In this document: positions 13,473-41,457 of the stretch, one piece after another
Layout of the letters: each line of letters opens with the position of its first letter
Numbering within the stretch: position 1 is the stretch's first letter
Source: Microvirga vignae
GTDB lineage: Bacteria; Pseudomonadota; Alphaproteobacteria; Rhizobiales; Beijerinckiaceae
DNA length: 64,000 nucleotides
Direction of reading: 5' to 3'
Assembly (NCBI RefSeq): GCF_001017175.1
Contig: NZ_LCYG01000020.1
Span: 62,001 to 126,000, forward strand
Program-made: the position numbers and the translations under genes
The notes under the pieces: generated by a model
Told to the model about the DNA's origin: nothing
The model's input: the letters and a program-made list of their open reading frames with translations, nothing else
Databases searched by the model: none

Positions 13473-14399
13473 CTATTGAGCTCCACGATAGTACGATAGC
13501 ATATCCCTTGGCATCAAAGATCGGGATGACTTTTTACCGAGGAAAAAGCTCCCAGATGGGCCGTCGTAGGAATGCCGCTTCGACGATACACGATCAAAGT
13601 GTTTCAGCCAGAAGAATAGAAGTGCGGTTACCAGTCCGAACTTCGATGATTTGAAAATACCAGCTGAAAAATAGCGGATCGACCAAAGCAACGCTGTCCC
13701 AGGCCCACGCGTGATCCCTGCTTCGATTTCCTCGAACCGGCGAAACAACCATCGGTGTCCGCTTGGCGTAAATCTGGTGAAATCATAAGCCGCTTCGTGC
13801 ACCTGCTGCATGAAAGGCGTTTCTGCATAGACGAGGCCACCTGGCGACAGAACTCGATATATTTCAGCCACTACATCGGAAGGAGTAAGGACGTGCTCGA
13901 GAACGGCTTGAATCCACACTCCATGGACTGAGGAGTCTGCAAGTGGGAGCTGATGCCCATCCGAAACGAAATGCGTCAGCTCTGATTTGTAGATATCGGT
14001 TCCGAAGACCGTCACGTCCGGATCAGAATATAGCGCTTGAGCGCCATTCCCTATTTCCCCTCCCCCGATGACGAGAATGATGGGATGCGCATAGGTAGCC
14101 TTCAGTTCGGAAAGGAACCGCGTGGCATTCGCCTCCGTAGGCCCCTCTGTTCGAAGAAGCGATTTCTTGAGCTTCTGCGCCCACCCCACCCGCCTCTTCA
14201 CTGGAGAGGATGCGCGATTGGCCAAGACTTGCTCTCTCAATACGATCGAGTTCTCGAAGTCGATGAGGACCGGAACTGTATCGACTACCGGAAATTCGGA
14301 CGTCGACATCTGGCATATGCTGTTCGTACAGCGCCAGCCATGAGTGGCTCTTGAGGATAAAAGCGGGAATTTACAACGTGGGCAATGCAGGTGAATCAT
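13473..14399 (-). CDS. SAM-dependent methyltransferase with N-terminal zinc-ribbon-like segment
   Basis: This is a 308-residue class I methyltransferase. The SAM-binding loop is ILVIGGGEIGNG and the post-motif region DGHQLPLADSSVHGVWIQAVLEH has methyltransferase_11 character. An N-terminal Cys cluster (CPRC, then C..S.C) looks like a small zinc ribbon. I chose the ATG at 14399 (MIHLHCPRC), 20 codons inside the longest frame, because the Cys cluster begins there and purine-rich sequence precedes it. Similar two-part proteins occur in surface-polysaccharide clusters and modify sugars or related acceptors. Its position at the edge of the exopolysaccharide locus suggests a sugar O-methyltransferase; the acceptor is unknown. 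Confidence 0.75.
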   Translation of the reverse strand: MIHLHCPRCKFPLLSSRATHGWRCTNSICQMSTSEFPVVDTVPVLIDFENSIVLREQVLANRASSPVKRRVGWAQKLKKSLLRTEGPTEANATRFLSELKATYAHPIILVIGGGEIGNGAQALYSDPDVTVFGTDIYKSELTHFVSDGHQLPLADSSVHGVWIQAVLEHVLTPSDVVAEIYRVLSPGGLVYAETPFMQQVHEAAYDFTRFTPSGHRWLFRRFEEIEAGITRGPGTALLWSIRYFSAGIFKSSKFGLVTALLFFWLKHFDRVSSKRHSYDGPSGSFFLGKKSSRSLMPRDMLSYYRGAQ

Positions 14400-15135
14400 C
14401 TCATCCAGCCTCAACCTGTTTCTAACGATGAGAGCGCAATCCATTGACGCTCTGTGCAACTAGGTCTGCTTACTGGTAGGCGCCGAACTCAACGCGCCCG
14501 TCTTTGAATGCACGAATCAAACCATAACGCAGCAGCAATTCTTGCGGTGACCTATGCCGAGATCATGGCATCGGTCTTGATCACACAACTCCTTAAAACA
14601 TGCCTTATTTCGGCGGAAAGTGCCTCTTCTCTATCCAGTCGATGTGCGCGAGTTAGGTACACACAGAAAGTGCAGAGGACATTGAGGATGCCTCTACTGC
14701 AATGCCAAATGTCATTGCTGCGCAAATGAAACAGCAATATGGCATTCAGTCGGCTCTTAACCCAGAGTTTGCTTGATCCATCTCGACATACATCCAAGGC
14801 GCATCGTGCGCCTACCACTTATGAGCATGAACGGGCTCGCTTCATGTAGAACATCGGTCTCTGCAACATGCTGAGATGCAATGCCTTATTTAAGCTATGA
14901 TGCTCTGATCTCTAATCCTTACTCTTTGTTTCTTTTCTATTCCCCATAGCCTTGTGGGGGATGCAAAGAAGCCGTTTTCGCAGCTGCGAAAAGGATCTAC
15001 CCCGCAATAATATTATCGCCGTGTTGAAGGTGAAGCTAGGTTGATACCCAACTCAGCCGCTCAGGGCTCTACGCGGCAATGTCGCGCTCAGTGACAGCTA
15101 GCCCATAATCTCATGGCTAACCAGGGGTGTGATCG
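14400..15135. other. Long intergenic region before the exopolysaccharide initiating gene
   Basis: About 735 bases without a credible gene. Short frames at 14508-14729 and 14552-14818 overlap on opposite strands and lack family features. The region holds an 18-bp perfect palindrome (14975-14992) and a small CCCCAT/GTGGGG repeat at about 14943-14960. It probably contains the promoter and control sites of the sugar-phosphate transferase gene. Confidence 0.6.
14975..14992. promoter_or_regulatory. 18-bp perfect palindrome upstream of the exopolysaccharide initiating gene
   Basis: TTTTCGCAGCTGCGAAAA is perfectly self-complementary with no loop, so it fits a dimeric protein binding site better than a terminator. 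It lies 143 bases before the start at 15136. No regulator in the window can be tied to it. Confidence 0.55.
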
Positions 15136-16596
15136 ATGACTTCATCCGCCGATGCATCAACTACGGGTCCTCGGATTCTAGCGTCAGCATCGACTCCCTT
15201 TTACATCCCCATTTATTTCGCCACGGCCCTCATGGCCGCATTGGACTTCAGTCTCTCCCTCCTATCGTTCGTTCTTGGAGACCTCGCTTTTCATCGGGTC
15301 TTCACGAAAGGCACCAGTCTGCCAGAAGATGCAGCGCTCCTAGGCGCGATTGCGGGATTGATCACCGTGCCGGGAATATTCGTTACCCGGGGGTACTCGG
15401 CCCTACAGGGAGTTTATCGCTCGAGGTATGCACTAAAGTTTGTCTTACCTTGGGCCTTTGCTTTCTTTGTGATCGGCTGGATAGCCTTTCTGACGCAGAC
15501 GACCCAAGCCGCTTCGCGAGGAACGGTCACATCTGCATTTATCATTGGATTCCTGCTGGCACTGCCCACACGTTCCGCGGCTCTGGCCTACTTCAAGCAT
15601 CAGGTATCGCGCTCTGCTCTTGCAACGCGCCGCGCCATCCTCATGGTAGAAGAGACTCACAGCGACGTATCTCAGATCGTCACCAGTCTTAAACGAAGCG
15701 GCATAGATATCCGTGCCCAACTGCCGTTTGATGGAAGCGGCGACGAAAATGATATCTTGTCGAACGTCAAGGATGTAGTTGATCGATGTCGCTCGATCCT
15801 CGCGCACGAGAACTGCGAGGCTATCTATCTCTTCATTCCCTGGTCCGACAACAATAAATACAGGCTCATCCGATCTGCGCTGAGTAAAGTGCCTGTACAG
15901 GTCTATCTCTTCCCCGACCGCCACATCGACGAGATCCTGCGCGGCGCCTGCATCGAAACGGCGTGGGGCGCTGGCTATCAGGTCCAGCGCACTCCCCTCA
16001 GCCTGATTGACCGGGCTCTGAAGCGTGTTCTAGACGTGGCAGCGGCGTCTACGGCCCTTCTCCTACTCTCACCACTCATGGCCGCTGTGGCTGTGTTGAT
16101 TAAACTCGACAGCACCGGTCCCGTCATTTTCAAGCAAAACCGCCGTGGCTTTAGCGGCCGGCAATTCAAAATTCTCAAGTTTCGCAGCATGACGGTTTGC
16201 GAAAACGGGGACACAGTCCAACAGGCTCGCCGTGGCGACTTAAGGATCACTCGCGTAGGCGCCTTCATACGCAAAACCAGTATCGACGAATTGCCACAGC
16301 TGTGGAATGTCGTACGAGGAGAAATGTCCCTGGTAGGACCGCGTCCTCATGCCCTCGCTCACGACGATTTCTATAGCCAATTAATCGCCAGCTATGCATC
16401 CCGTCATCATGTGAAACCTGGGTTGACAGGCTGGGCTCAGGTGAATGGCCTTCGGGGAGAAACTCCAGAAGTGTCGGACATGGAAGCTCGCGTGACAAAG
16501 GACCTGTGGTACATCGATAATTGGTCCATCCTGCTCGATCTCAGAATTATTCTTCGAACCGTGTTCTGCGTCCTGTCAGACAAGCGGGCATACTAG
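15136..16596 (+). CDS. Undecaprenyl-phosphate sugar phosphotransferase (WcaJ/PssY-like), initiates polysaccharide repeat
   Basis: This 486-residue polyprenyl-phosphate hexose-1-phosphate transferase has four or so N-terminal membrane segments, a central CoA-binding-like region and the C-terminal bacterial sugar-transferase domain. The domain starts at about residue 295 (ALKRVLDVAAASTALLLLSP, a re-entrant membrane helix). Catalytic motifs are FKQNRRGFSGRQFKILKFRS, with the usual Lys/Arg pattern, and later DELPQLWNVVRGEMSLVGPR and KPGLTGWAQVNG. It transfers sugar-1-phosphate, probably glucose or galactose, from a UDP-sugar to the lipid carrier, the first step of Wzx/Wzy synthesis. AGGGG lies about 11 bases before the ATG. 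The ugd gene follows by 65 bases. Confidence 0.93.
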   Translation: MTSSADASTTGPRILASASTPFYIPIYFATALMAALDFSLSLLSFVLGDLAFHRVFTKGTSLPEDAALLGAIAGLITVPGIFVTRGYSALQGVYRSRYALKFVLPWAFAFFVIGWIAFLTQTTQAASRGTVTSAFIIGFLLALPTRSAALAYFKHQVSRSALATRRAILMVEETHSDVSQIVTSLKRSGIDIRAQLPFDGSGDENDILSNVKDVVDRCRSILAHENCEAIYLFIPWSDNNKYRLIRSALSKVPVQVYLFPDRHIDEILRGACIETAWGAGYQVQRTPLSLIDRALKRVLDVAAASTALLLLSPLMAAVAVLIKLDSTGPVIFKQNRRGFSGRQFKILKFRSMTVCENGDTVQQARRGDLRITRVGAFIRKTSIDELPQLWNVVRGEMSLVGPRPHALAHDDFYSQLIASYASRHHVKPGLTGWAQVNGLRGETPEVSDMEARVTKDLWYIDNWSILLDLRIILRTVFCVLSDKRAY

Positions 16597-16661: not shown

Positions 16662-17975
16662 ATGCGTATTGCAATGATTGGTGCAGGCTATGTGGGGCTC
16701 GTATCGGGGGCGTGCCTTTCTGACTTCGGCCATGAAGTCGTCTGCATCGATAAGGATAAGAGCAAGGTTCGAGCTCTACTTGATGGCAAGATACCGATCT
16801 ACGAACCCGGACTGGATGATCTCATCGCACGCAATGTGCGTGAGCAGCGTTTGACGTTCAGAACAGGACTGGCAGAAACCGTTGCAGCTGCTGACGCTGT
16901 ATTCATCGGAGTAGGCACCCCATCCCGCAGAGGTGATGGCCACGCGGATCTTTCCTATGTTCATCAGGCAGCCCGGGAAATCGGAGCAGCGATATCTGGT
17001 TACACAGTTGTGGTGACTAAATCGACAGTTCCCGTCGGCACTGGCGATGAAGTAGAGCGTATCATCCGAGAGATCAACCCGAAAGCGGATTTCGCCGTCG
17101 TTTCAAATCCAGAATTCCTGCGTGAGGGAGCGGCAATTAACGACTTCAAACGTCCGGATCGGATCGTCGTCGGCACTGATGACGAACGGGCCAAGAAGAT
17201 GATGCAAGAGATCTATCGCCCGCTTTATCTTAACCGATCACCGCTTGTTTTCATGTCGCGGCGCACGGCGGAGCTGACCAAGTACGCCGCCAATGCTTTC
17301 CTTGCTACGAAAATCGCGTTCATCAACGAGATAGCGGACCTTTGTGAGCAGGTGGAAGCAAACGTTCAGGATGTGTCGCGCGGTATAGGTCTCGATAACC
17401 GTATTGGCTCGAAGTTTCTGCATGCAGGCCCCGGCTATGGCGGCTCGTGTTTTCCCAAGGACACTCTCGCTTTGATGAAGACTGCCCAAGACTACGGCGC
17501 CCCACTCCGCATCATTGAGACAGTCGTCGCATCAAATGATCAAAGGAAGCGTGCCATGGCACGAAAGATCATCGCTGCATGCGGCGGTTCCGTACGAGGC
17601 AAGACAATCGCCATCCTTGGTCTTACGTTCAAACCAAATACCGATGATATGCGTGAGGCACCGTCGATCGCTATTATCACAGCTCTGCAGGATGCAGGAG
17701 CTCGGGTTCGTGCTTACGACCCTGAAGGAATCGAGCAGGCTCAGCTCGTAATGGGCAATGTTGAATATGCTGACGACCCTTATTCCTGTGCGGAAGGCGC
17801 TGCCGCGCTCGTCATCGTCACCGAATGGGATGCTTTCAGAGCACTCGACATGAGACGGCTCAAAAACATCATTCCCTCTGGGATTGTTGTAGATCTACGA
17901 AACATTTATCATCCGGACGAGATGGCTGAGTATGGTTTCACATATCGAAGCATTGGTCGTGCCGAGGTCACGTGA
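16662..17975 (+). CDS. ugd: UDP-glucose 6-dehydrogenase
   Basis: This 437-residue enzyme oxidises UDP-glucose to UDP-glucuronate in two steps with NAD. The N-terminal Rossmann motif is MIGAGYVGLVSGACLSD. The active-site Cys lies in GPGYGGSCFPKD at about residue 265, and the second NAD-fold begins with TIAILGLTFKPNTDDMREAP. Length and motifs are standard for the family. Its place directly after the initiating transferase indicates that the polysaccharide contains glucuronic acid or a derived uronic acid; a UDP-glucuronate-epimerase-like gene at 31553 supports this. Confidence 0.96.
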   Translation: MRIAMIGAGYVGLVSGACLSDFGHEVVCIDKDKSKVRALLDGKIPIYEPGLDDLIARNVREQRLTFRTGLAETVAAADAVFIGVGTPSRRGDGHADLSYVHQAAREIGAAISGYTVVVTKSTVPVGTGDEVERIIREINPKADFAVVSNPEFLREGAAINDFKRPDRIVVGTDDERAKKMMQEIYRPLYLNRSPLVFMSRRTAELTKYAANAFLATKIAFINEIADLCEQVEANVQDVSRGIGLDNRIGSKFLHAGPGYGGSCFPKDTLALMKTAQDYGAPLRIIETVVASNDQRKRAMARKIIAACGGSVRGKTIAILGLTFKPNTDDMREAPSIAIITALQDAGARVRAYDPEGIEQAQLVMGNVEYADDPYSCAEGAAALVIVTEWDAFRALDMRRLKNIIPSGIVVDLRNIYHPDEMAEYGFTYRSIGRAEVT

Positions 17976-18370: not shown

Positions 18371-18991
18371 TTAGGCAACTTGCTCGAGCGTTAAGTGGTT
18401 GCGGGGATAGCCAAAAGCGTCAAAGTCTTTGCGATAGAAATTATAGATCAAGTCCATAGTTTCAGAATCGATTTCTATCGGCCTATCGCCGGACTTGTTA
18501 GTGTGGGGGATCTTCTCAACCAGGGAGACGCCCAGGACATCTTGCAGACGCTGCTCTACCGGTGTGAAACCATCTTCCAACTTGAAGATCTCAACATCTG
18601 GGGTTAGGAAATCAGTCTGTGGGCGGATATGATTGCTAAGCAGGTAGCTGTTCTTTTCATACTCGGCAAAGCAGCGGCGCACCCATCTCCGGAAAGAAGG
18701 AGTGAACAATGTCTGCTTTTTGGACCCTATTCTATACTTGTATTCACTCATGATGCGCTCATAAGGGTTGCGCACGACAGCAAATGAGTAGTCGAAGAAA
18801 CTCCCGTCGAAGAGATAAGCATAAACGTGTGTATCAAAATGCTGCGGGACACACGGAACAAAATCACTGCGCTTAGGCGCATAGAGAGACAAGGGCCCTA
18901 TCGATCGCAACCACTTCTCAACGGAGGTTCCACCAGTCTTGGGGATATGTACGAATAGCAGAACCTTAGAGCCAGCTCGCAGAATCGGCAT
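18371..18991 (-). CDS. PAPS-dependent sulfotransferase, family 2-like
   Basis: This 206-residue enzyme contains the two PAPS-binding motifs of carbohydrate sulfotransferases. The 5'-phosphosulfate loop is LLFVHIPKTGGTSVEKWL at about residues 11-28 and the 3'-phosphate motif is VVRNPYERIMSEYKY at about 72-86. No signal or membrane anchor is evident, so it would act in the cytoplasm on lipid-linked repeat units. The nearby cysD-cysNC genes make PAPS and cysQ removes the by-product PAP. The acceptor is probably a sugar hydroxyl of the polysaccharide made by this locus. It is somewhat short for the family but has both binding motifs. Confidence 0.85.
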   Translation of the reverse strand: MPILRAGSKVLLFVHIPKTGGTSVEKWLRSIGPLSLYAPKRSDFVPCVPQHFDTHVYAYLFDGSFFDYSFAVVRNPYERIMSEYKYRIGSKKQTLFTPSFRRWVRRCFAEYEKNSYLLSNHIRPQTDFLTPDVEIFKLEDGFTPVEQRLQDVLGVSLVEKIPHTNKSGDRPIEIDSETMDLIYNFYRKDFDAFGYPRNHLTLEQVA

Positions 18992-19074: not shown

Positions 19075-20949
19075 TTACTTCTTAAGGTTGGGACCATAGT
19101 ACCCTACCCAGTAGCTCTCATCGTAGCTACTGTCGTAGCTGCGAACCCTCTTTTCATCGACCTTGTTAAGCACAGCGCCGATGATCTTCGATTTGATCTC
19201 TCCAGAGGTCTCGATCGTTCTGCGCAGCACGTCAGCTGTTAGCATGTTCCATCCAACGACCAGTACAACTCCGTCAAGCAAATGCGCGGCCGCTCTCACG
19301 TCTACGCTCGGAGCTATTGGCGACATATCCAGAACGATTACGTCATAGTGCGCACTAAGATCGTCCATCAGTTGCTTCATTCGCCGGGATCCAAGCATCT
19401 CATGGGCAGCAGCTTCCGGCTCACCAGATACGCCGGGAAGAACGTGAAGACCGCTTTCTGCGTCGATCCAGAGCTTGTCGTCGAGACTTCCGCCGCTCTC
19501 GAGAAGGTCCAGGATTCCGCGGCTCGGATTGTCGACAAGCGCACTGGTTAGATATGGAAAGCGGAAGTCGAGGTCGATCAGGAGAGTACGGCGTCCGGTT
19601 CGAGAAAACATATGGCCAAGATTGACCGCGACGGAGCTTTTCCCCTCGTGAGGAATACAGGATGTAACGCCAATCACCTTGCAGCGCGAGGCACGCCCTA
19701 TCTCATTACACGTCACTACAATGTTTCTGATCGTTTCCGTGAACCGTGTGTACGGCTGATGGATTACTGCGCTCAGAAGAGGCTGGTAGTGATGAGCAAC
19801 TGAAGAGCCGTCGAGTTTGGACGTGACAGATCGCGTTGCCGCATAGTCCAAACTGCCGACGTCGAAGCGAGGCAAGAAGCCCAGAAAGTCGCAGTTAGCC
19901 AGGCTCTCAACTTGCCTCGTAGTCTTGACCTTCCGGTCACTTATCTCCCGCAGAAAGGCGCCTGCAGTTCCCAGAGCTAATCCGGCAGAGGATGCCATCA
20001 GCATGACAATGCTGATGATGGGAGCATCCCTCTGAGTTGGCGGAACAGCCCGTGTAAGGATGCGCGCTTCCGATCCAGAGAACGACTGCTCCTGAACGAC
20101 ACGCGCATAGCGATCAAGGAAATTGTTATACAGCGTCCGGTAAGACTGGGCGTTGCTCTCGAGCTCACGCAAACGGACCTGAGCCTCGGATCCACCGTCT
20201 GGTTGAAACTGCGCAACAGCTCTGTCAGCAACGGCAGCACGCGAGCGCAGTTCCTCAATCCGCTCCTCAAGCCAATCTTTAGTTCGTCCCGCACCGACAA
20301 GTCGTGATGCCACTTGATACTCGATGTATCGCTCAGAGAAGGCGTTCGCAATCAATGCAGCCTTTTCAGGATCGAGAGAAGAGAAACCAATCGCAATCAC
20401 ATAACTGAGGCCGCCACGGTGAACGTCCAGATTGTCTTTGACCTTCTCGACTGCGATCCGGATGGGGTCATTGCTGTTCGGTGGCTGAGGAGGAAGCCAG
20501 CCGGCAGATTGCAAGGCCGTTTTCAAGGCGGCTCGTACATGTGAGATAGGATTAAAGGTCGGATCATCGCCGCTACCGAACTCAGGATCGTCCTGCAATC
20601 CGAGGCGTCTTACGACATCCTCTACAACGGCAATCGAGTTTATCGTAGCCACTTGGCTTTCTATGAAGCCAGGATCTATGGCGCCGGATGCCGTCCCCGA
20701 ATCCTCGCGGAAGGGATCGATTCGTTTTGCATCGATAATCACGCTGGATGAGGCATAGAACGTAGCTGGCGTGATCACGATATAAGCGACACCCAAAGCC
20801 GCGAACAAGAACCATGCTAAGGCGATAAGCAGCCACTGGCGCTTCATTGCCCCAAGTATGAAGCCGAAATCAACGAGGTCCTGACGCTCTGCTTCGGTCT
20901 TAGTGCTGATATAGTCAGCCTTGATACTGTAGTTGCGAGCAAGATTCAT
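19075..20949 (-). CDS. Polysaccharide co-polymerase / BY-kinase (Wzz-Wzc, ExoP type)
   Basis: This 624-residue protein has two membrane segments (about residues 38-60 and 311-332) flanking a periplasmic domain with coiled-coil helices (RTKDWLEERIEELRSRAAV). The C-terminal cytoplasmic kinase domain has Walker A SCIPHEGKSS (430-439), Walker A' RTLLIDLDFR and Walker B VIVLDMSPI. The last 20 residues form a Tyr cluster (YDSSYDESYWVGYY) of the type autophosphorylated in BY-kinases. These proteins set polymer length and couple polymerase to the outer-membrane exporter. The partner exporter is at 22452-23669. It is on the minus strand, divergent from a GT4 gene. Confidence 0.93.
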   Translation of the reverse strand: MNLARNYSIKADYISTKTEAERQDLVDFGFILGAMKRQWLLIALAWFLFAALGVAYIVITPATFYASSSVIIDAKRIDPFREDSGTASGAIDPGFIESQVATINSIAVVEDVVRRLGLQDDPEFGSGDDPTFNPISHVRAALKTALQSAGWLPPQPPNSNDPIRIAVEKVKDNLDVHRGGLSYVIAIGFSSLDPEKAALIANAFSERYIEYQVASRLVGAGRTKDWLEERIEELRSRAAVADRAVAQFQPDGGSEAQVRLRELESNAQSYRTLYNNFLDRYARVVQEQSFSGSEARILTRAVPPTQRDAPIISIVMLMASSAGLALGTAGAFLREISDRKVKTTRQVESLANCDFLGFLPRFDVGSLDYAATRSVTSKLDGSSVAHHYQPLLSAVIHQPYTRFTETIRNIVVTCNEIGRASRCKVIGVTSCIPHEGKSSVAVNLGHMFSRTGRRTLLIDLDFRFPYLTSALVDNPSRGILDLLESGGSLDDKLWIDAESGLHVLPGVSGEPEAAAHEMLGSRRMKQLMDDLSAHYDVIVLDMSPIAPSVDVRAAAHLLDGVVLVVGWNMLTADVLRRTIETSGEIKSKIIGAVLNKVDEKRVRSYDSSYDESYWVGYYGPNLKK

Positions 20950-22386: not shown

Positions 22387-22412
22387 TTTATGGAGCGGGC
22401 TCCTCAATAGTT

Positions 22413-22434
22413 GGATCTGACGATCGACAGATCC
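22413..22434. terminator. Hairpin between convergent glycosyltransferase and export genes
   Basis: GGATCTG (22413-22419) pairs with CAGATCC (22428-22434) around an 8-base loop in the 65-base gap between two convergent stops. It could terminate both transcripts. T-runs are weak. Confidence 0.45.
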
Positions 22435-22451
22435 GGTTTCGAGGACCGGAA

Positions 22452-24738: not shown

Positions 24739-24755
24739 GACTTTGGGCTTTCATT

Positions 24756-26480: not shown

Positions 26481-26501
26481 GAGCGAAACCCTTGAGCGAA
26501 A

Positions 26502-32536: not shown

Positions 32537-32818
32537 CGACTACCCTTTTCTTTAGGAATATTACTGCTGAATTCTTACAGACGGGGCACATCTCTGTCTA
32601 TGTGCCGGCATATCTCTTAAGTATAGAGTCACGTTCCAGGGGGATATACGCCACCTTATTTTGGAGCAAACAGGAGCGAAACTCTCGATCAATACTTTCT
32701 GGATGGCGCATTTGGCCCGTTGACACCTCGGGGCTAAAGGCCGCGGATCGATTGATTGAGACCGAGCTTTCGAGAACTATGTGGTGTGTCCTACCCTGTC
32801 GGTGAGAACGTTCAACTC

Positions 32819-34129
32819 ATGCCATCCTCTCTCCAAAAGAAGCTTCCAAGATTCAGCAGGCGCGAGCTTCTCTCGGGCTGCTTGAGTGGGCTCCTTCTGA
32901 CCCAAAGTGGGCGCGGAGCGGCTCAACCCACCCGGCAATCGGAAGCTCGAGATCTCCCTCAATTCTTTATCGCGCCATCCGCTTCCGGAACGGGGAGGTC
33001 CTGGGCTGATGCATCCGGGATTGAGAGCCTCCCCGAGTTGATCACACAGGGAGGTCCTGGGAGCATTATTCACATTCGAGCCGATGAGAATGACTTCTAT
33101 GATCTCACTGGCAGGACACTGAGGATTGAGCGGGGCGGCACGGAGCAGGCTCCTGTCACGATCCGCGGGGTACGCAGCGACGGCAGCGTCGGATATGCTC
33201 ACCTTCACTCGGATCGTACGCCTTGGACTCTTCCGACCTCCCCTGAAACGGTCACGGACACCTCTCAGTGGAATCCGGGCGGTGATCTGTTCCTGGTTGC
33301 TTCCGGAGCCCAGCATATCGTCTTCGAACATCTCGACCTGCGCCGAGCAGGCAATGCAATCAAGCTCTCCGACAGGATGCATGGCCTCACTATTCGCAAT
33401 TGCCGAGGCTACAACGTCCGACGTTTTCTGGAGATGAACAGCAATATCGACGTGAGCGACGTCGTCGTCAGTCATGTCACCGTCATCGGCTTCTCCAAAC
33501 ATTGCTTCCGCTGCCGCGGCACAGGAGGGAACTGGCTTTTTGAGGCTGTATCGGCCAATTCAGGACGTCAGGATGGTGACAACTTCGCCGTTGGAATAGG
33601 CATCAACGAGATGGCGCACGGTATCGTCATCCGAGATTCGGAGTTCGCGAACTGCCATGACAGTCAAAACCGGTACTGGAATGGCGATGGCGTATCCTCC
33701 GAAGAGGAAAACAGCAATATCTTGATCGAGCATGTGGTCTGTCACGGCCATACCGATGGGGGGCTTGACCTCAAAAGTTCGCGCACGACGGTCCGAAATT
33801 GCGAATTCTACGATAACAAAATCAACGTTCGTGCCTGGGGTGATATCGCGTTGATCAACAACATTACCCGGTCTGCCCATCTCAGAGGAGGCGTCGGCTA
33901 TGCCGCTCATATTGGCGTCTATGCCAACAAGGAAGTGACGGCCAATTTGCGCATAGATGGAATCAAAATGCTCGAAAAGAATCCAGACGTGAGTCTCTTC
34001 TCGCTAGGAGGAGAGAACGCGACAATCTCCGTGGTGAGGTATGAAATAGATAAAGCTCCCGGCACGGCGCTCATCAGAAAAGATCGAGCCAGTGGCGCAA
34101 CGATGATCGCCAATCCCCCTCTCCTCTGA
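32819..34129 (+). CDS. Secreted right-handed beta-helix protein with Tat-like signal (lyase/epimerase-like)
   Basis: This 436-residue protein has a twin-arginine-type leader (SRRELLSGCLSGLLL near residues 14-28) and then a region rich in N/D-containing beta-helix coils (IRNCRGYNVRRF, VIRDSEFANCHDSQN, TVRNCEFYDNKINVRAWG). The fold is that of pectate lyases and mannuronan C5-epimerases, enzymes acting on uronic-acid polymers. Surface-exposed Asp/Glu/Lys/Arg suitable for catalysis exist (SSEEENSN, DGGLDLKSSRT), but no specific active site can be assigned. I chose the ATG at 32819 because the leader begins there; the frame is open to 32756. Likely role: trimming or remodelling the polysaccharide in the periplasm. 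Confidence 0.75.
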   Translation: MPSSLQKKLPRFSRRELLSGCLSGLLLTQSGRGAAQPTRQSEARDLPQFFIAPSASGTGRSWADASGIESLPELITQGGPGSIIHIRADENDFYDLTGRTLRIERGGTEQAPVTIRGVRSDGSVGYAHLHSDRTPWTLPTSPETVTDTSQWNPGGDLFLVASGAQHIVFEHLDLRRAGNAIKLSDRMHGLTIRNCRGYNVRRFLEMNSNIDVSDVVVSHVTVIGFSKHCFRCRGTGGNWLFEAVSANSGRQDGDNFAVGIGINEMAHGIVIRDSEFANCHDSQNRYWNGDGVSSEEENSNILIEHVVCHGHTDGGLDLKSSRTTVRNCEFYDNKINVRAWGDIALINNITRSAHLRGGVGYAAHIGVYANKEVTANLRIDGIKMLEKNPDVSLFSLGGENATISVVRYEIDKAPGTALIRKDRASGATMIANPPLL

Positions 34130-34273: not shown

Positions 34274-35533
34274 TTATTCGCGCCGCTCATTTCCGCTGAC
34301 AGCGAGCGGTGGCAGACCAGCCTCAGTTGCGAGATCGGCATTCTGTGCCGGCAGCCCCTGCAAGCGCCGGTGATCTCCAAAAATTCGAGACAGGAGGCGC
34401 TCCGGCGAATATGGAGCTACAGTGTCAGCGACGAGGCTCGGCCTTATTTGCCCGCTCTGAATTGATTTCCAGGTATCGACAATTTTGGCTGCCAGGTCTT
34501 GAACTTCTGTCGGAGAGCGAGGAACAAGGACTCCGCTTTTCCCTTCAAGAACGACCTGCTCAAGCTGCGGCAGGTGAAATGCACAAACTGGCCTGCCAGC
34601 GGATAATGTCTCCATCACAAAACGCGGCATACCTTCGAACTCAGACGTGAGAATGCCGATATGCACGGAGGACAAGATGCCTGCGATTTCCGATGCCTTC
34701 CTGCGACCGTGCCGAACCGTCACGCCGCGAATGGCGTCGAACTCCTGAAAGGCCTCCATATTGCCGTCTCCGATGTAGTGAAAGTTGACCATGCCGTCGG
34801 TCAGCCGGCTGACCTCCTCGATGGTCCGGAACATGAGACCAGGGTTCTTGAAAAGATCGAGACGCCCAGCGTAGACGATATTCAGCTTGTTTGAGCTGAG
34901 ATCAAACTCTGTGGGCCGGAAAGTATCCTTGTCCGCCCATGTCGTTAAGGTGCCGAGTTTGCCTGCACAACGCGGGCTCATGGCCTTGAGCCGGTTCGTG
35001 AGGTTCTCGTTCACGCAGTAGAACTTGCTGCAGAGATTAAGGGCAAGGTAATCGCCGAACTCCTTGATGAACCAGTACTTCTTCAAAAGCGAGCTCATGC
35101 TGCTGCTTTTGCTTTCTGCCCCATCATGGAGCATTTGAATGAAGGGTCTTCCGAGCAAAGCCGCAAAGGGAGCGAACTCGACACGGCGAAGCTCGACCGT
35201 GGCCCGGGTGGATGAAGTGTAGCATCGGATTGTCCGCCAATGCAGGATCAGTTGCAGCATGAAGTTGAATGTGAGCGAGTCTTTCAACTTAGCCGCATAT
35301 TCGTTCGTCTGCTGATCGTTGTAGTAGGCGATGGGAAGAAACTTTATCCTGCGTCCTCGAAACTCGATCTCCGAGATCTTACCGATCTCCAAATCTCCGA
35401 ATCCATCGACACCAACCAGAAGCAGTTCCATATCCTCGGGATGGTAGGTGATGTAATCCCTGACATAAGTCTCGATACCGCCCACCTTTGCACCACGGGG
35501 ATCAAACGGGTGAATCATGCAGACGTGATACAT
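34274..35533 (-). CDS. Glycosyltransferase family 4
   Basis: This 419-residue GT-B enzyme has an N-terminal MIHPFDPRGAKVGGIETYVRDY (acceptor loop with GGIE) and a C-terminal donor domain starting LNIVYAGRLDLFKNPGLMFR. The EX7E donor motif appears as SEFEGMPRFVMETLSAGRPV. It is predicted to extend the lipid-linked repeat. The specificity is unknown. The next gene leftward is more than 100 bases away, but the WecG-like gene on the right reads in the same direction, 51 bases upstream, so the two could be co-transcribed. Confidence 0.92.
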   Translation of the reverse strand: MYHVCMIHPFDPRGAKVGGIETYVRDYITYHPEDMELLLVGVDGFGDLEIGKISEIEFRGRRIKFLPIAYYNDQQTNEYAAKLKDSLTFNFMLQLILHWRTIRCYTSSTRATVELRRVEFAPFAALLGRPFIQMLHDGAESKSSSMSSLLKKYWFIKEFGDYLALNLCSKFYCVNENLTNRLKAMSPRCAGKLGTLTTWADKDTFRPTEFDLSSNKLNIVYAGRLDLFKNPGLMFRTIEEVSRLTDGMVNFHYIGDGNMEAFQEFDAIRGVTVRHGRRKASEIAGILSSVHIGILTSEFEGMPRFVMETLSAGRPVCAFHLPQLEQVVLEGKSGVLVPRSPTEVQDLAAKIVDTWKSIQSGQIRPSLVADTVAPYSPERLLSRIFGDHRRLQGLPAQNADLATEAGLPPLAVSGNERRE

Positions 35534-35584: not shown

Positions 35585-36361
35585 TTATGAGCGATCGCTG
35601 CCTTCCAGCGACAAAGGCATCGGGCTCTGCAGATCCTTTGCGACCGCGATCAGAAAACGCCAGGAATTGAGGAGATAGCGCGGCGCAAGTCTGCGCGGCT
35701 CCTGGGCTAGGCGCCAGAACCACTCCATGCCGATGCGGCGCATGAATGGAGGCGCACGTCGCTGTGTTCCCGCGAGAAAATCAAGGCCCGCACCCAGACC
35801 GAAGGCATACAAGCCGCCAAGAATCTGACGATGCTGATGAACCCACACCTCTGACTTCGGAGAGCCGATCCCCATCAGGAGATGAGTGGTTCCGTGTTTG
35901 GCTACCTGTTGCGCCATATTGGTCGAACAGGTGTGGTCATATTCAAACCCTAATGGCGGTACAACCCATGCAACGGACGCCGGATCAAAACCTTGGGAGG
36001 TGAGCCGCTTGGTCAGCCGTTCGCAGGCCTCCTGGTTGCTTCCAATCATAAAAACTCTGTGGCGCGCAGGATCCCAGCAGCCGAAGAGAGATTGAACAAG
36101 GTCTGCGCCTGTCACGCGGGCTGGCAGCTTCACCCCTCGAAGACGTGCATAGAGGTAAACGGGCCAACCGTCTGCTGTCGAGATCCAAGCTGACCCGTAA
36201 GCGGCACGGTAATCGGCTCGTCGCGTCAAATTCACCACATGATCCAGGTTTGTGGTCACGACAAGGCGTGGACCGGATCCATTTGGTATATCCTGCGTAA
36301 CGAGATCCACGATGGCTTGCTGTGTCAGCGAAGAGAAGTTGATCCCGAAGACGTGCTTCAT
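35585..36361 (-). CDS. WecG/TagA/CpsF family glycosyltransferase (GT26)
   Basis: This 258-residue protein has the GT26 landmarks: VTTNLDHVVNLTRRADYRAAY with its Asn-x-Asp, then STADGWPVYLYARL, and the GSPKSEVWVHQHR segment with GLGAGLDFLAGTQRRAP. The family transfers N-acetylmannosamine (TagA) or ManNAc-uronic acid (WecG), or other sugars in exopolysaccharide clusters, to a lipid-linked acceptor. It is upstream of the GT4 gene at 34274 and divergent from the polymerase gene at 36583. Confidence 0.92.
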   Translation of the reverse strand: MKHVFGINFSSLTQQAIVDLVTQDIPNGSGPRLVVTTNLDHVVNLTRRADYRAAYGSAWISTADGWPVYLYARLRGVKLPARVTGADLVQSLFGCWDPARHRVFMIGSNQEACERLTKRLTSQGFDPASVAWVVPPLGFEYDHTCSTNMAQQVAKHGTTHLLMGIGSPKSEVWVHQHRQILGGLYAFGLGAGLDFLAGTQRRAPPFMRRIGMEWFWRLAQEPRRLAPRYLLNSWRFLIAVAKDLQSPMPLSLEGSDRS

Positions 36362-36582
36362 GGCCCCACCCGAACGAATGTTCCTTTACTAGAGCTTAGA
36401 AAAGCACTGCCATGCCGTCGCTCGGTCATTGGCTGTACGCCGAAATTGCCACTTGGGTGACGCCTCTACATCCATTGAGCGCTCAGCCGTGGTACCCGGC
36501 TTGCTTTACATTCCCGAGAATTCATCCGGGAAGAAGATCTCTGAAGCGAACCAAGAAGCAGTATGGCAAGAAGCAGCATGGT

Positions 36583-37881
36583 ATGAATAGCATTTTCAGA
36601 CTTGTCGAAAAAATCTATGCTGTTACCGCCCTGTTCTTCATGACGGGCTCATTGATTGCCATCATGTCCCCCGACGAGCTTGCCGTGGGTGTCGATGGGG
36701 CAGGTTCTCCGCACTATCGGATGCTCGGGCTCGCAATCGGCGGCGTGGCATTCCTCTTGTTGGCTATGCGTCCAAAGGCTTTGCTTCGGTACTGGATCGT
36801 GTTCATTCCGGTGCTCGTGGCCGTTGCCTCCATCTCCTGGTCAGTATCTCCAGGAGTCGCTTTTCGCAGATGCGGCTCTCTCATCATCACGACCGTATTC
36901 GCCATCTGGCTCGGCGAACGCTTTACGACGCGGACCATCATGAATCTGCTGCTGGGAGCAATGGCCCTTGTCTGCATCAGCAGCTACGTTTCCATCTTCG
37001 CCTTTCCGAACTTCGGCATTCACAATCCGACCAATACCATCAATCCGAGCCACTTTGGGGCCTGGAGAGGAATGCTGGGCCATAAGAACGACTTCGGCCG
37101 CATGCTGGCTCTTGCATCCACTATCTTTCTGGTTGCCTTTCTCATCCGCCAGAAGTGGCGCTGGGTCTATTTGACCGGGTGGCTGTCCGCGATAGCTCTG
37201 ATCGGCGGCTCTCACTCGGGTCAGGCGGTTGTTCTCGCCATCCTGCCTGCAATAGGTCTGATCATGCTGCTCTGGCTGAGAGGCATGCCGCTGCAGTTCC
37301 GATCTCTGGTCATCATTGTCACCCTTCCAATCGGCCTCTTCGTCTCCCTGATCTCCAATGTGATCGTGACGGAAGTGCTGAACATTCTGGGTAAGGACCC
37401 CACCCTCACCGGCCGGAGTGATATTTGGAGCGCCGCCCTGAGTTCTCTCGGGAACAACATTTTCCTAGGTGGCGGTTACGGCACCGGATGGGAGATGATT
37501 GCCGCTGGCGTGTTCATGCGGATGGGTGGAACCATGACGCATGCCCATAACGGTTATCTCGACCTGCTCCTTGATGTTGGAGTCTTCGGGCTCTCCATAA
37601 CTCTAGCGTTCTATGCAATCCTCGTCTTCAAACTGAGGCGGATCCTTCTTTCGCCTAAACAGACGGAAGCTGTCGCTCTTGGGCTCGTTGTGCTGATTTT
37701 TATCATCTCAGGTAATTGGGTGGCGTCCTTCCTCCTCCAGTACAACAGCATATATTGGGTTCTGCCGGTCCTCTTGTATGTAAAGCTCACGCAGATCGAG
37801 ACTGCAGCTTCGCAACAAGTATTACCAGTTCAGATCAATATCCCGCTCGGCTCAGGAAAGTACGGCCCGATGACAAGCTGA
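36583..37881 (+). CDS. Polysaccharide polymerase (Wzy/ExoQ-like O-antigen ligase family)
   Basis: This 432-residue integral membrane protein has about 10-11 predicted helices and the O-antigen-polymerase/ligase loop: GAWRGMLGHKNDFGRMLALA, then GRSDIWSAALSSLG and MTHAHNGYLDLLLDVG. The His-Asn-Gly and LGHKN motifs are characteristic of ExoQ-like enzymes. It polymerises flipped repeat units in the periplasm. I chose MNSIFRLVEK at 36583 because the 57 upstream codons of the open frame lack hydrophobicity and look non-coding, though the ribosome site is weak. Confidence 0.88.
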   Translation: MNSIFRLVEKIYAVTALFFMTGSLIAIMSPDELAVGVDGAGSPHYRMLGLAIGGVAFLLLAMRPKALLRYWIVFIPVLVAVASISWSVSPGVAFRRCGSLIITTVFAIWLGERFTTRTIMNLLLGAMALVCISSYVSIFAFPNFGIHNPTNTINPSHFGAWRGMLGHKNDFGRMLALASTIFLVAFLIRQKWRWVYLTGWLSAIALIGGSHSGQAVVLAILPAIGLIMLLWLRGMPLQFRSLVIIVTLPIGLFVSLISNVIVTEVLNILGKDPTLTGRSDIWSAALSSLGNNIFLGGGYGTGWEMIAAGVFMRMGGTMTHAHNGYLDLLLDVGVFGLSITLAFYAILVFKLRRILLSPKQTEAVALGLVVLIFIISGNWVASFLLQYNSIYWVLPVLLYVKLTQIETAASQQVLPVQINIPLGSGKYGPMTS

Positions 37882-38103: not shown

Positions 38104-38952
38104 TCAAGCCGTTCCTGCTTCGGCCGGCGCTCTCCAATGAGGCAGATTGATTCCGATCATCTCTTCGAGCTTCTCAATATCTGCAAGCAGAAGATCGGAA
38201 TATTGAAGCGCCTGCCGGCGGATCTCTTGCTTGTGCTGGGCACTCGGCACGGGCCCGAAGACCAGCTTCTTCAGGGGGGCAAGATTCAATTTGCTGACCA
38301 GATAGCCGGCCCCGAGTCCTCTCAATTCATCGGCCCCGAACCGGGTCAATCGGGCAAGAGCCTTGAATTTCGGAACGCTTGCCTCGTTCACGAAGGCCTT
38401 GGAAAGTTCGGAGCTTGGTGCGATGAAGGGAATACCGAGGAGCTTGCACATCTTCTCGCAAAAGCCGTTGAGATTGGCCCTCATTTCTTCTTCCAAGAGG
38501 ACGTGGACCCGGTCAGCTCCCAAAAGGTCCAGCCAGACGCGCAGATTCTGATAGTAGAGGCCCGAGTGGATGATGTCTTTGTGCATCTCCACCATTCGTT
38601 CAAACCCGACATCAGGTACGCCACATTTGAGATAGTGGAAATAGTGCGACACAGCACGATCGATCGGGTTCTTGAGAGTACAGATCACATGAGCCGTGGG
38701 AAGGATTTGCGCCAAACGCTTCGTGGCCTCAGGCTTTCCGAATAGTGTCGGCGCAACCTCGACACAAACTCCTTGCCTCCCATCGCTGAAATGCGACTCG
38801 TACCATTCGAGGCCTTTGTGAAATCTTTTATCGAAGAAGACTGTCTCTTTCAGGGTCAGCGGCAGGACGACATCGTTTCGCGCCCGCAAGTAGGTATCGA
38901 TCCAGCTCGTACCGCTCTTGGTCGGCCCGATAAACACGAAGTTTGGAAGCAT
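38104..38952 (-). CDS. PAPS-dependent sulfotransferase, heparan-sulfate-sulfotransferase-like
   Basis: This 282-residue enzyme opens with FVFIGPTKSGTSWIDTYL, the 5'-phosphosulfate loop at about residues 5-22. It then has KETVFFDKRFHKGLEWYESH and the 3'-phosphate motif VICTLKNPIDRAVSHYFHY near residue 90-110, the order seen in glycosaminoglycan sulfotransferases. It differs strongly from the other sulfotransferase at 18371, so the two may sulfate different positions or sugars. Sulfation of a uronic-acid-containing repeat by a cytoplasmic enzyme using PAPS from cysD-cysNC is the obvious role. The acceptor is inferred. Confidence 0.88.
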   Translation of the reverse strand: MLPNFVFIGPTKSGTSWIDTYLRARNDVVLPLTLKETVFFDKRFHKGLEWYESHFSDGRQGVCVEVAPTLFGKPEATKRLAQILPTAHVICTLKNPIDRAVSHYFHYLKCGVPDVGFERMVEMHKDIIHSGLYYQNLRVWLDLLGADRVHVLLEEEMRANLNGFCEKMCKLLGIPFIAPSSELSKAFVNEASVPKFKALARLTRFGADELRGLGAGYLVSKLNLAPLKKLVFGPVPSAQHKQEIRRQALQYSDLLLADIEKLEEMIGINLPHWRAPAEAGTA

Positions 38953-39177: not shown

Positions 39178-39191
39178 CTCTCTTCGGACGC

Positions 39192-40784
39192 TTATGCCAC
39201 AATCATGAAATGATCTGCTGTGAGCAGAACGCCTTTCTTGAACGTCGCCAGCAAGGCCGCTTCTGCAGCTCCAGCGCCGTCACTGTCCCACATCAGCTTA
39301 TAGGATGTCTTATTGTACAAGAACTGGCCATGCCCCAGAGCACTGCCTTGCTTCGACGTTCCCGACACCGTCTTGAAATAGCTGGCTTCAAGGTCCCCAT
39401 TCCGCAGGCCTGCCCCTTCGCGCAGTCCGAAGCCGGCGGCCATGATGCCGATCCGATCCGCGCTGTTGGAGAAATCGAGGATGGTGTCGGAGCTGGCGGC
39501 CTTTGCCTCGCTGAATACGAATGTATCCGCCCCTGATCCGCCGGTCAGGCTATCATGCCCCCCGGCGCCCCAGATGATGTTGGCGCTATTGTTTCCCTTC
39601 AGAACATCGGCACCGCTTCCGCCCTTGATCCAGGAGGATTGGTCAATCGTGCTTGGAGGTATGCTCGAAGAAGGAGATGGAGTCTGAGAGTCTTCCGTCT
39701 CATCCGTCTGCACGGAGCCTGACGTCTCATAGTAAGGCGTCACTCCAACCCCTTCCCAAACGGACGGGCCTGTGCTGCCGGCGTAGTTGCTGATCAGCTT
39801 CGTGCTGTCCAGGGCGCTCGCGAGACCAAGCCAGTCTGTCTTGTCGAGCCAGTTGCCCTGCAGAGTCACATCCTTGCTCTCCCACGCAGGAGTATGGAAC
39901 GTGCTGCCTGCCGCGGAGACACCGATTGCCTTGGTATGAACAATGTCATGGATCCAATTACCGGTCAGTTCCACCGACTGGGCACCGAGCACACGGATGC
40001 CCTGATGAGCCGTGTTCTCGACTTCATTGCCGACCACGCGAATGTCGCGGGCCTCGTAGCTTTCCGTACCAATGAAGCCGGGCCAGAAGAACTCCTCTCC
40101 CGTATAGCCGCCAACGCCGATCCCGTGCTTACCCGCACCATCGATATGGTTGCCCTCGACCAGGATGTCGTAGGAGCCACCCTTGATATTGATTGCCGCA
40201 CCGTGAGCGCCCTTGATTTCATTGTGGCCAATCACACCGTGATGCACACCCACGAAGTCGATACCCTCCTCCTCACCCGTCGAGCCGGTGATGCGGTTAT
40301 TCAGGACATAGACATATTCGGCCTTGCTGACCTTGATACCGTCGCCAGCGAGAGCGGCGATGTCATTGTTCTTGAGGACAATGTTCTTCGGAGGATCGAA
40401 GGTGTTATTGAGGTTCACATACACATGCACCGCATTGCGGGATGCAGATGTGGGTCCAGCAATGCTCATGCCGTCGATCACGATATGATCCACGCCTGCG
40501 ACTTGGAGTGTGTCTTTCGCGTTGTCTGCTGGCTTGATCTGGGCTTTGCCACGGCCATCCGCAGAAATGATTTGAATCGGTAGGTCCTGAGCACCGTTCG
40601 TCCGGAGCGTTACATTCTCGGTGTAAACACCAGCCTTGACCATCACGGCGGTTCCGGGCTTGGCGCGATTGACAGCCTCTTGGATCGTTTTGACAGGATC
40701 AGTCTCAGTTCCCGCTCCGCCCGTGCGTCCGCCAGCGGATACCCAAATAACATCAGTCGGCTGAACAGCCTGCAATAAATACAT
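39192..40784 (-). CDS. Right-handed beta-helix protein with C-terminal RTX repeat, AlgE-like architecture
   Basis: This 530-residue protein has no classical signal peptide. Residues about 15-330 are parallel beta-helix, opening with IWVSAGGRTGGAGTETDPVK and carrying many N-turn coils (VYVLNNRITGSTGEEEGIDF, DIRVVGNEVENTAHQGIRVL). A Ser/Pro/Thr linker (QTPSPSSSIPPS) leads to a short RTX block (GGSGADVLKGNNSANIIWG, GGHDSLTGGSGADTFVF). The C-terminus resembles type I secretion signals. This is the build of mannuronan C5-epimerases and some type I secreted lyases, so it probably acts on the exported uronic-acid polymer. I use the ATG at 40784, with GGGG 8 bases upstream, over a TTG four codons earlier. 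The upstream region is strongly AT-rich. Confidence 0.82.
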   Translation of the reverse strand: MYLLQAVQPTDVIWVSAGGRTGGAGTETDPVKTIQEAVNRAKPGTAVMVKAGVYTENVTLRTNGAQDLPIQIISADGRGKAQIKPADNAKDTLQVAGVDHIVIDGMSIAGPTSASRNAVHVYVNLNNTFDPPKNIVLKNNDIAALAGDGIKVSKAEYVYVLNNRITGSTGEEEGIDFVGVHHGVIGHNEIKGAHGAAINIKGGSYDILVEGNHIDGAGKHGIGVGGYTGEEFFWPGFIGTESYEARDIRVVGNEVENTAHQGIRVLGAQSVELTGNWIHDIVHTKAIGVSAAGSTFHTPAWESKDVTLQGNWLDKTDWLGLASALDSTKLISNYAGSTGPSVWEGVGVTPYYETSGSVQTDETEDSQTPSPSSSIPPSTIDQSSWIKGGSGADVLKGNNSANIIWGAGGHDSLTGGSGADTFVFSEAKAASSDTILDFSNSADRIGIMAAGFGLREGAGLRNGDLEASYFKTVSGTSKQGSALGHGQFLYNKTSYKLMWDSDGAGAAEAALLATFKKGVLLTADHFMIVA

Positions 40785-40971
40785 CGTATGCCCCAATTAT
40801 AAAAAAAGAAAATATTCTTATATATTTGAATAATAATGCTTATTAGCAACAACGCCGAAGCGTGTCTATACGTAAGATCTGAAAATTAAGCGCGACGCAA
40901 GCAACGCACTCTGCGCTTCCAGCAAGATTCAAGCACCCGTATGGTCTCGGGAAATTCTGATCGCTGCCTGA

Positions 40972-41457
40972 TCAGTATTGGAGAAAGGACAATTCTGGAA
41001 CAGACTTAAAGCTATCGGTCCCGCGGCGATTGGGGGGCAGACCACAGGCAAATTGCGATATCCGCTTGGCTCCCGTGATTCCTGGAGTCTCCCCTCCTCC
41101 GATATTAAAATACAGCAACTGACCAGCGGTTCGGCCAATTCCTCGAATGCGGGCTGGTATCGTATTGGGCTGGTCGGATATTTTGAGCGTGACGTAAATC
41201 TCGGTTTTCCAACCCCGTTGCAGGCGCTCGGAAATGTACTCCGGCTTGACCAAGGCTTTGAACATGACCAGATCGCCCTGATGCTGGCTCAGGTACGAGC
41301 AATGCTTCATGAATATACCGAGCGCCTTCTCCACGTCGCTGCGGGTCAATGTTCCGCCCTCTATTGTTATCTCAAACCGTGGTGTGCTGGCATTGGCCGC
41401 AAAGGACGTGAGGCCGATCAGGGCGGCTCCTAATCCAGCCAGGACAGCCCACCACAT
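40972..41457 (-). CDS. Exported hypothetical protein
   Basis: This 161-residue protein has an N-terminal hydrophobic signal (VLAGLGAALIGLTSFAA, cleavage near ANA-S) and no further membrane helix. The mature part begins STPRFEITIEGGTLTRSDV and contains two Cys (HCSYLS and QFACGL) that could pair. I recognise no family. GGGAGA precedes the ATG at a good distance. It lies between the exopolysaccharide and glycerol loci on the minus strand. Confidence 0.65.
   Translation of the reverse strand: MWWAVLAGLGAALIGLTSFAANASTPRFEITIEGGTLTRSDVEKALGIFMKHCSYLSQHQGDLVMFKALVKPEYISERLQRGWKTEIYVTLKISDQPNTIPARIRGIGRTAGQLLYFNIGGGETPGITGAKRISQFACGLPPNRRGTDSFKSVPELSFLQY

Follow-up and report, generated by a model that had tools for sequence, protein, structure and literature searches.

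A Wzx/Wzy exopolysaccharide locus with its own sulfate-activation operon and two sulfotransferases in Microvirga vignae: genes for a probably sulfated polymer

A 64,000-nt stretch of the Microvirga vignae genome (contig NZ_LCYG01000020.1, positions 62,001 to 126,000; hereafter the window) contains, at window positions 13473-41457, a Wzx/Wzy exopolysaccharide locus that holds a cysD-cysNC-SLC13-cysQ operon for the synthesis of 3'-phosphoadenosine 5'-phosphosulfate (PAPS) and the genes of two sulfotransferases, here called ST1 and ST2. Judged from its genes, this locus very probably makes and exports, by the Wzx/Wzy route, a sulfated heteropolysaccharide that would probably contain uronic acid. 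A sulfated polymer had been proposed in an original prediction made from the letters of the window, and that proposal is strengthened because, in the same genome, the full adenosine 5'-phosphosulfate (APS) kinases that were found lie beside sulfotransferase genes and the assimilatory gene copies have no such kinase, and because ST2 lies with wzx and wzy in nine other genomes.

Genes of the locus and a proposed route to the polymer

The twenty proteins encoded in 13473-41457 were scanned against Pfam and NCBIfam with curated cut-offs applied, and the reading frames are open in all twenty genes. The sulfotransferase and PAPS genes, followed by those for polymer assembly and export, are listed here with protein lengths in amino acids (aa).

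18371..18991, minus strand: ST2, Sulfotransfer_2 family, 206 aa (PF03567, 52.5 bits; cut-off 22)
38104..38952, minus strand: ST1, Sulfotransfer_1/3 family, 282 aa (PF00685, 57.6 bits; cut-off 22)
28436..29335, minus strand: CysD, ATP sulfurylase small subunit (PRK12563, 526 bits; cut-off 413)
26502..28436, minus strand: CysNC, fusion of ATP sulfurylase large subunit and APS kinase, 644 aa (PRK05506, 994 bits; cut-off 715), with P-loops in both halves
24756..26480, minus strand: permease with CitMHS and TrkA_C domains, SLC13/DASS-like, probable sulfate transporter
23899..24738, minus strand: CysQ, 3'(2'),5'-bisphosphate nucleotidase for removal of 3'-phosphoadenosine 5'-phosphate (PAP) (TIGR01331, 276 bits; cut-off 229), with a DPLDGT motif
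15136..16596, plus strand: WcaJ-type undecaprenyl-phosphate glucose-1-phosphate transferase, priming step (WcaJ_sugtrans TIGR03023, 418 bits; cut-off 411)
21274..22386, plus strand: GT4a, glycosyltransferase of family 4 (GT4; Pfam)
34274..35533, minus strand: GT4b, glycosyltransferase of family GT4 (Pfam)
35585..36361, minus strand: WecG/TagA/CpsF glycosyltransferase (Glyco_tran_WecG, over the Pfam cut-off)
29642..31165, minus strand: Wzx flippase (Polysacc_synt_3, over the Pfam cut-off)
36412..37881, plus strand: Wzy polymerase (Wzy_C, over the Pfam cut-off)
19075..20949, minus strand: Wzc-like co-polymerase and bacterial tyrosine kinase (BY-kinase) with a Tyr-rich tail (Pfam, NCBIfam, motifs)
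22452..23669, minus strand: outer-membrane polysaccharide export (OPX) protein (Poly_export and SLBB, over the Pfam cut-offs)

The two sulfotransferases had been described as unrelated PAPS-dependent enzymes, a claim borne out by their different Pfam families and by the PAPS-type motifs in each. Specifically, ST1 has the pair GPTKSGTSW / RAVSHY and ST2 the pair HIPKTGGT / RNPYERIMSEY, which we take to be PAPS-binding motifs. In the PDB, ST1 matches the sulfotransferase 3rnl best, followed by the heparan sulfate enzymes NDST and 3-OST; for ST2, neither a single-sequence nor a profile search returned a PDB sequence relative. By eye, no signal peptide is apparent in either protein.

The operon genes lie on one strand, with a start/stop overlap between cysD and cysNC followed by gaps of 21 and 17 nt; the start of CysNC is set at the ATG at 28436, which overlaps the cysD stop, in place of the TTG given in the list of open reading frames. 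The predicted cysD, cysNC and cysQ stand as named. The transporter had been called SLC13 and is better described by its CitMHS and TrkA_C domains, scoring under the DASS cut-off and being distantly SLC13-like; its place in the operon makes sulfate its probable substrate. Families of cysH, cysI and cysJ are absent among the twenty proteins. A scan of 22300-32700 found promoters at chance level (6, with 5.8 expected) and 14 terminator-like sites, with 9.7 expected.

The claimed Wzx/Wzy set is likewise complete, each named part being supported by its family: priming transferase, Wzx, Wzy, co-polymerase/BY-kinase and OPX occur together. The weakest match among them is the Wzc-like protein, in which GNVR and Wzz score under the Pfam cut-off and CbiA and AAA_31 over it, and which contains a Walker A-like SCIPHEGKSS, a Walker A'-like LIDLDFR and five tyrosines among its last 30 residues. 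Taken as a set, these predicted functions indicate that the genes of 13473-41457 probably assemble and export a polymer by the Wzx/Wzy route.

Beyond the parts named in the original prediction, all of which are present, the locus contains five genes that its list had omitted, given first below, and a small gene at its right end.

16662..17975, plus strand: UDP-glucose 6-dehydrogenase type, for supply of UDP-glucuronic acid (UDP-GlcA) (TIGR03026 over cut-off; Pfam)
31553..32536, minus strand: nucleotide-sugar short-chain dehydrogenase/reductase, possibly of UDP-GlcA 4-epimerase type (Pfam/NCBIfam; predicted substrate)
32819..34129, plus strand: BetaH1, right-handed beta-helix protein with a Tat-like N-terminus (by eye), start at M22, fold nearest to AlgE4/AlgE6 modules
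39192..40796, minus strand: BetaHRTX, beta-helix with RTX calcium-binding repeats, probable secreted polysaccharide-acting enzyme
13473..14459, minus strand: methyltransferase (Methyltransf_11; Pfam), at the left edge of the exchanged block described below
40972..41457, minus strand: 161-aa protein with a hydrophobic N-terminus (by eye), no family match in the Pfam/NCBIfam scan

The UDP-GlcA substrate of the putative epimerase is presumed from its sequence features. Both BetaH1 and BetaHRTX have a right-handed beta-helix fold like that of the AlgE modules, and the BetaH1 profile found no sequence relative in the PDB. In the mannuronan C5-epimerases AlgE and AlgG the catalytic motif is DPH, a string absent from the translations of both proteins; naming either one as a particular enzyme was set aside, given this absence and a fold common to many beta-helix enzymes. 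BetaHRTX is probably a secreted enzyme acting on polysaccharide, that is, a lyase, an epimerase or a hydrolase.

In the proposed mechanism, the SLC13-like permease would take up sulfate, CysD and CysN would convert it into APS and the CysC domain would form PAPS, with CysQ clearing the PAP. ST1 and ST2 would then transfer sulfate to separate positions or residues of the repeat unit carried on undecaprenyl. Since PAPS is cytoplasmic and the sulfotransferases have no apparent signal peptide, this step would most likely take place on the lipid-linked unit before the Wzx flip. Following polymerisation by Wzy, Wzc and OPX would export the chain, and the finished product may be trimmed or epimerised by the two beta-helix proteins, of which one has a Tat-like leader and the other is RTX-tagged.

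Sulfate activation in the rest of the genome

The genome of M. vignae (G000 in our numbering; 6.47 Mb, 165 contigs, 3.5% contamination) contains three cysD copies besides that of the locus, on contigs C13, C160 and C91. On C13 and C160, cysD follows cysH, and cysN aligns to CysNC residues 1-497 and 1-500 only, without the APS kinase. Each CysH has a CC and a CAPC pair of cysteines, which presumably marks the APS-reductase type. Since the assimilatory cysHDN copies are without the kinase and their CysH is of the APS type, cysteine synthesis should not need PAPS. The search for APS kinase gave two complete copies, one in this locus and one on C91, and a single 22-bit fragment on C103; both complete kinases lie beside sulfotransferase genes. 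In other words, PAPS synthesis in this genome goes, as far as found, with sulfotransferases, because the full kinases lie beside them and the assimilatory copies are without one.

The place on C91 (L132, 7184-11925) is a second PAPS module, in which a 430-aa Sulfotransfer_3 protein scoring over the Pfam cut-off is followed by cysD and cysNC; its CysNC is 61% identical to that of the locus, and an RTX-like protein lies nearby (by eye). Sulfotransferase counts per genome are lower bounds, as the PF00685 genome scan gave one place and missed this C91 protein. The cysH-cysD-cysN regions at C13 82000-95563 and C160 1-16000 (L130, L131) are 76-89% identical in DNA, piecewise, and may be a real duplication or stem from the 3.5% contamination. 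Two further PAPS_reduct matches lie on C22 and C117. In a tree of eight CysD sequences, four of the five inner branches are open, and the tree places the locus copy neither inside nor outside a special sulfation lineage. In the chondroitin sulfation of Escherichia coli, native PAPS was limiting until cysH was repressed or deleted (PMC7925653, cited, like the papers below, from excerpts).

Related loci, exchange of the block and alternative readings

A scan with the ST2 alignment, one genome per species, gave at least 588 pattern matches, of which 142 were confirmed and 80 loci kept; the twenty locus proteins were compared with these by tblastn, the relatives' flanks extending to at most 10 kb. 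This Wzx and Wzy were matched in nine of the 80 (L014 to L021 and L028), in records named Roseovarius, Roseobacter sp. CCS2, Maritalea mobilis, Rhodobacter aestuarii, Salipiger bermudensis, Maritimibacter, Aliiruegeria haliotis, Rhodovulum and Yoonia maricola. Most of these names belong to Rhodobacterales (confirmed for Salipiger and Rhodobacter, presumed for the others), with Maritalea placed under Hyphomicrobiales. Their ST2 proteins, at 42-48% identity to that of the window, are the closest among the matches listed, the others reaching at most 41%. Of the latter, six with 34-41% identity (L022, L032, L043, L048, L052, L059) come from records named Chitinophagales, Saprospiraceae and Prochlorococcus, which are not Alphaproteobacteria, and reflect either gene transfer or binning errors.

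Besides ST2, present in all nine by choice of the query, each of these loci contains GT4a, Wzx (41-46% identical to that of the window), Wzy and a priming enzyme of the Bac_transf type. ST1, Wzc and OPX are each found in eight, L014, a 14-kb contig, being without all three. The RTX beta-helix protein occurs in four; BetaH1 is matched in three at E 1e-8 and, with blastp at E 1e-3, in seven (23-25% identity); none of the nine has a match to WecG, the methyltransferase or the 161-aa protein. In seven relatives wzx is followed on the same strand by ST2 after 11-32 nt, and in the other two an ST1 gene intervenes. Moreover, the pairwise identity of ST2 tracks that of Wzx, GT4a and Wzy (r 0.94, 0.93 and 0.91; 0 of 5000 permutations each), computed with the window included over ten rows for Wzx, nine for GT4a (L016 out) and nine for Wzy (L014 out). 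The original prediction had suggested looking in related genomes for sulfotransferases and cysDNC together inside wzx/wzy loci: ST2 is found there in nine genomes and ST1 in eight of them, and cysDNC in none of these loci. Two strong ST1-type genes occur in each of the genomes G529, G530, G536 and G310; in the first three, both lie within about 11 kb of ST2, which makes three sulfotransferases per locus.

A close relative of the same genus, G906, was chosen among 48 genus genomes by its 97% identical FGGY (glycerol-type) kinase. The window DNA is 88-90% identical to that of G906 across 1-1407 and 1562-13113, 81.5% across 13187-13435 and 92% across 41787-52297, and between 13435 and 41787 no match exceeds 200 nt. 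The exchanged block thereby runs from about 13436 to about 41786, close to the limits predicted for the locus. Past the kinase gene lies, in G906, a different exopolysaccharide locus, in which a scan of 10 of the 18 listed frames identified Bac_transf, a GT2, GT4s, OPX and a methyltransferase; tblastn of the twenty proteins on that site matched WcaJ, Wzc, GT4a and OPX only, at 24-40% identity, and neither sulfotransferases nor cys genes in the part covered by its contigs. This allele is incomplete, as the G906 contigs end inside the block, and the assembly has 7% contamination. The site consists of the following segments.

C57 11162-30727 (L167, L168)
C49 1-3236 (L169)

Because the flanks match G906, the block between them is replaced and its G+C is low (53.8%, with flanks at 59.6% and 60.9%), the block is read as an exchangeable allele at a polysaccharide site between a ThuA-type gene and a glycerol-type operon. 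Over 12400-42000, Rfam gave no match at the gathering threshold, and the repeats found are imperfect 25-40 nt matches that mark no insertion ends. The right flank, 41803-51994, resembles a glycerol operon, with genes for an FGGY kinase, two permeases, two ATP-binding cassette (ABC) ATPases, a DAO/DAO_C oxidoreductase and a DeoR regulator. Outside the block, a second low-G+C stretch (52492-56337, 53-54%) encodes a pair of histidine kinase and LuxR-type response regulator (52492-54854) and another LuxR-type regulator; these proteins are possible candidate regulators. At 60519-62162 a GNAT-type Acetyltransf_6 domain is fused to TPR repeats.

Several points weigh against the reading of a sulfated polymer, which is a prediction from genes. 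The four cys-operon genes are missing from all nine relatives' loci, and cysD is found in one of the nine genomes, that of R. aestuarii, on a contig other than its locus; this places the PAPS operon outside the conserved core. In two cysD-less relatives that were checked, APS kinase is part of longer frames, 616 and 698 aa in length and possibly fusions of Sat and CysC, and elsewhere among the 80 kept loci cys genes are matched in L041, L056, L077 and L086 only. Uronate supply is not constant among the relatives either, the UDP-glucose dehydrogenase being found in six of the nine loci (57% identity in two, 31-33% in four) and the epimerase in four. The identity correlation, which has no species-tree control, could also stem from shared species ancestry. 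In addition, 71 of the 80 kept loci have no match to this Wzx or Wzy, in a search that unrelated flippases or polymerases would escape, and the ST2 family as such is not bound to an exopolysaccharide role.

The shared distribution of strong ST1 and ST2 matches, by contrast, speaks for this reading. In the window's order (397 Rhizobiales-type genomes), ST1 matches occur in 28 genomes (E 1e-20) and ST2 matches in eight (E 1e-40); in the family of Roseobacter sp. CCS2 (345 genomes), ST1 is found in six and ST2 in 16 (E 1e-40). Under E 1e-80, ST1 and ST2 fall in the same two genomes of each set, G000 and G310 in the former and G529 and G535 in the latter, a line set after a wide gap was visible and with G000 and G529 preselected as carriers of both genes. 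In the window's own family (149 genomes), ST2 is found in five, strongly in the M. vignae genome only, and the five further genomes of its genus that were listed have no match, which marks the block as rare. A further point against the reading comes from G310, probably Afifella sp. IM 167: two ST1 genes, cysD, cysNC, wzx and wzy lie within 40 kb on its contig C4, but its ST2 gene is on C5, where a stretch of 38 kb contains none of the other locus genes. What is conserved is thus the Wzx/Wzy set together with both sulfotransferases; the PAPS operon comes in addition to it, in the window and, differently, in G310. Another locus of the same order, in G523 (C1 3082000-3120000; L122, L123), encodes a 619-aa frame matching CysQ and CysD, then cysNC, along with proteins resembling Wzc and WcaJ and a distant ST1 (29%).

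Lipids and small molecules are frequent substrates of bacterial sulfotransferases, and ST1 and ST2 might modify some other surface molecule (a lipid, lipopolysaccharide (LPS) or a small molecule) and be merely located in the block. This is improbable: the many ST2 loci in which this Wzx and Wzy find no match and the separate ST2 of G310 fit it, but it sits badly with ST2 following so closely upon wzx in seven relatives, with ST1 sharing the locus in eight, with ST2 identities that follow those of Wzx and Wzy, and with replacement of the whole block in G906. There is also a slight chance that the cysDNC-SLC13-cysQ genes are a spare assimilation operon carried in by chance, sulfation drawing on PAPS from another source or not taking place, which could hold even with a sulfated polymer. 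The absence of cys genes from the relatives' loci and the second cysD-cysNC on C91 are in its favour, but an operon of cysNC, cysD, cysQ and a permease also lies in the sulfated-capsule locus of Cobetia (PMC11766843). Nor does a spare assimilation operon agree with a block whose twenty scanned proteins include no cysH, cysI or cysJ family, with a genome that already holds two assimilatory-type cysHDN copies with APS-type CysH and no APS kinase, or with G310, where cysD and cysNC share 40 kb with wzx, wzy and two ST1 genes. It is very improbable that the block, acquired horizontally, has decayed or fallen silent and yields no product. Its low G+C would fit such an island but is usual for polysaccharide loci; its twenty frames are open, the motifs sought in the sulfotransferases, CysNC, CysQ and the Wzc-like protein are present, and database relatives retain the genes (for instance ST1 at 96% identity, ST2 at 87% and BetaH1 at 89%).

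The reading of a sulfated Wzx/Wzy polymer can be extended, tentatively and with a rather low chance of being right, to the proposal that the window and the nine relatives' loci form one undescribed class of sulfated uronans. Two position-specific sulfotransferases (three in three of the nine genomes) would act before the flip, an exported beta-helix enzyme would epimerise or cleave uronates, the product would be glycosaminoglycan-like, and the whole would be gained or lost by allele exchange.

Known systems and significance

In the Rhizobiales, NodH with NodPQ and the sulfation of LPS are a known case of dedicated CysD/CysNC-type PAPS synthesis for a sulfotransferase; the substrate there is a lipo-oligosaccharide or LPS, in contrast to the Wzx/Wzy polymer of the window. 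A NodPQ/Nod-factor reading was set aside, as the Pfam/NCBIfam listings contain no Nod family and the Wzx/Wzy set is full.

PAPS synthesis genes and a sulfotransferase inside a polysaccharide cluster, the arrangement of the window, are also found in two other bacteria. The capsule cluster of Cobetia marina KMM 1449 includes cysNC, cysD, cysQ, a sulfate permease and a sulfotransferase, and its sulfated product was solved by nuclear magnetic resonance (NMR); the likeness to the window lies in these PAPS genes, permease and sulfotransferase within the cluster (PMC11766843). It differs in being a Kps-type ABC transporter capsule of a gammaproteobacterium with a rhamnose-mannose polymer, whereas the window has Wzx/Wzy, two sulfotransferase families and a uronate gene. 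In Vibrio sp. KMM 8419, second copies of cysC, cysN and cysD lie in a capsule cluster with sulfotransferases, again with an NMR-solved sulfated product, but with ABC transporter export, a separate cysC and another lineage and other sugars (PMC11641403). No ABC transporter family occurs among the twenty locus proteins, and the export genes are those of Wzx/Wzy instead of kps. The original prediction had held that dedicated activation genes are rarely described outside cyanobacteria and rhizobia, which needs correcting in view of these two published cases (PMC11766843, PMC11641403).

Wzx/Wzy together with two sulfotransferases of distinct families, as in the window, recalls the synechan xss cluster of Synechocystis 6803, which combines Wzx/Wzy with two sulfotransferases of distinct subfamilies and whose sulfate was chemically shown (PMC8205485). 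No PAPS genes are mentioned for that cluster, the terms PAPS and adenylyl being absent from the text of the paper, and the cluster has cyanobacterial regulators and its OPX gene elsewhere; as for counterparts of XssQ, XssR and XssS, no histidine kinase, response regulator or STAND-type family was found among the twenty locus proteins. In Actinoplanes missouriensis, the wps-1 cluster combines Wzx/Wzy with two sulfotransferases that belong to different families, and normal sporangia require a neighbouring gene from the sulfate adenylyltransferase/APS kinase family; there the host is an actinomycete and polymer sulfation is predicted (PMC13390465). Sulfated glycosaminoglycan-like exopolymers are reported for Pontiella (PMC7356697). 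A literature search, Rhodobacteraceae sulfated exopolysaccharide sulfotransferases included, found no description of this locus, the nearest being 'Candidatus Phaeomarinobacter ectocarpi', in which two sulfotransferases in glycosyltransferase clusters were taken to indicate a sulfated exopolysaccharide (PMC4110880).

Hence PAPS genes in sulfated-polysaccharide loci are already known from the ABC-exported polymers of Cobetia and Vibrio. What is new here is the Wzx/Wzy form with a full operon for uptake, activation and clearance, its connection with a two-sulfotransferase locus that recurs in alphaproteobacteria, and the exchange of the allele. Sulfated sugar chains are better known from animals, algae and cyanobacteria, and papers of 2021 and 2026 describe bacterial sulfated polysaccharides as exclusively cyanobacterial (PMC8205485, PMC13390465). 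Together with its relatives, several of which belong to named type strains, the present locus provides alphaproteobacteria in which this view can be tested directly, and the two sulfotransferase families are candidate tools for making sulfated glycans. The locus is also a case of sulfation genes carried on an exchangeable surface-polymer allele.

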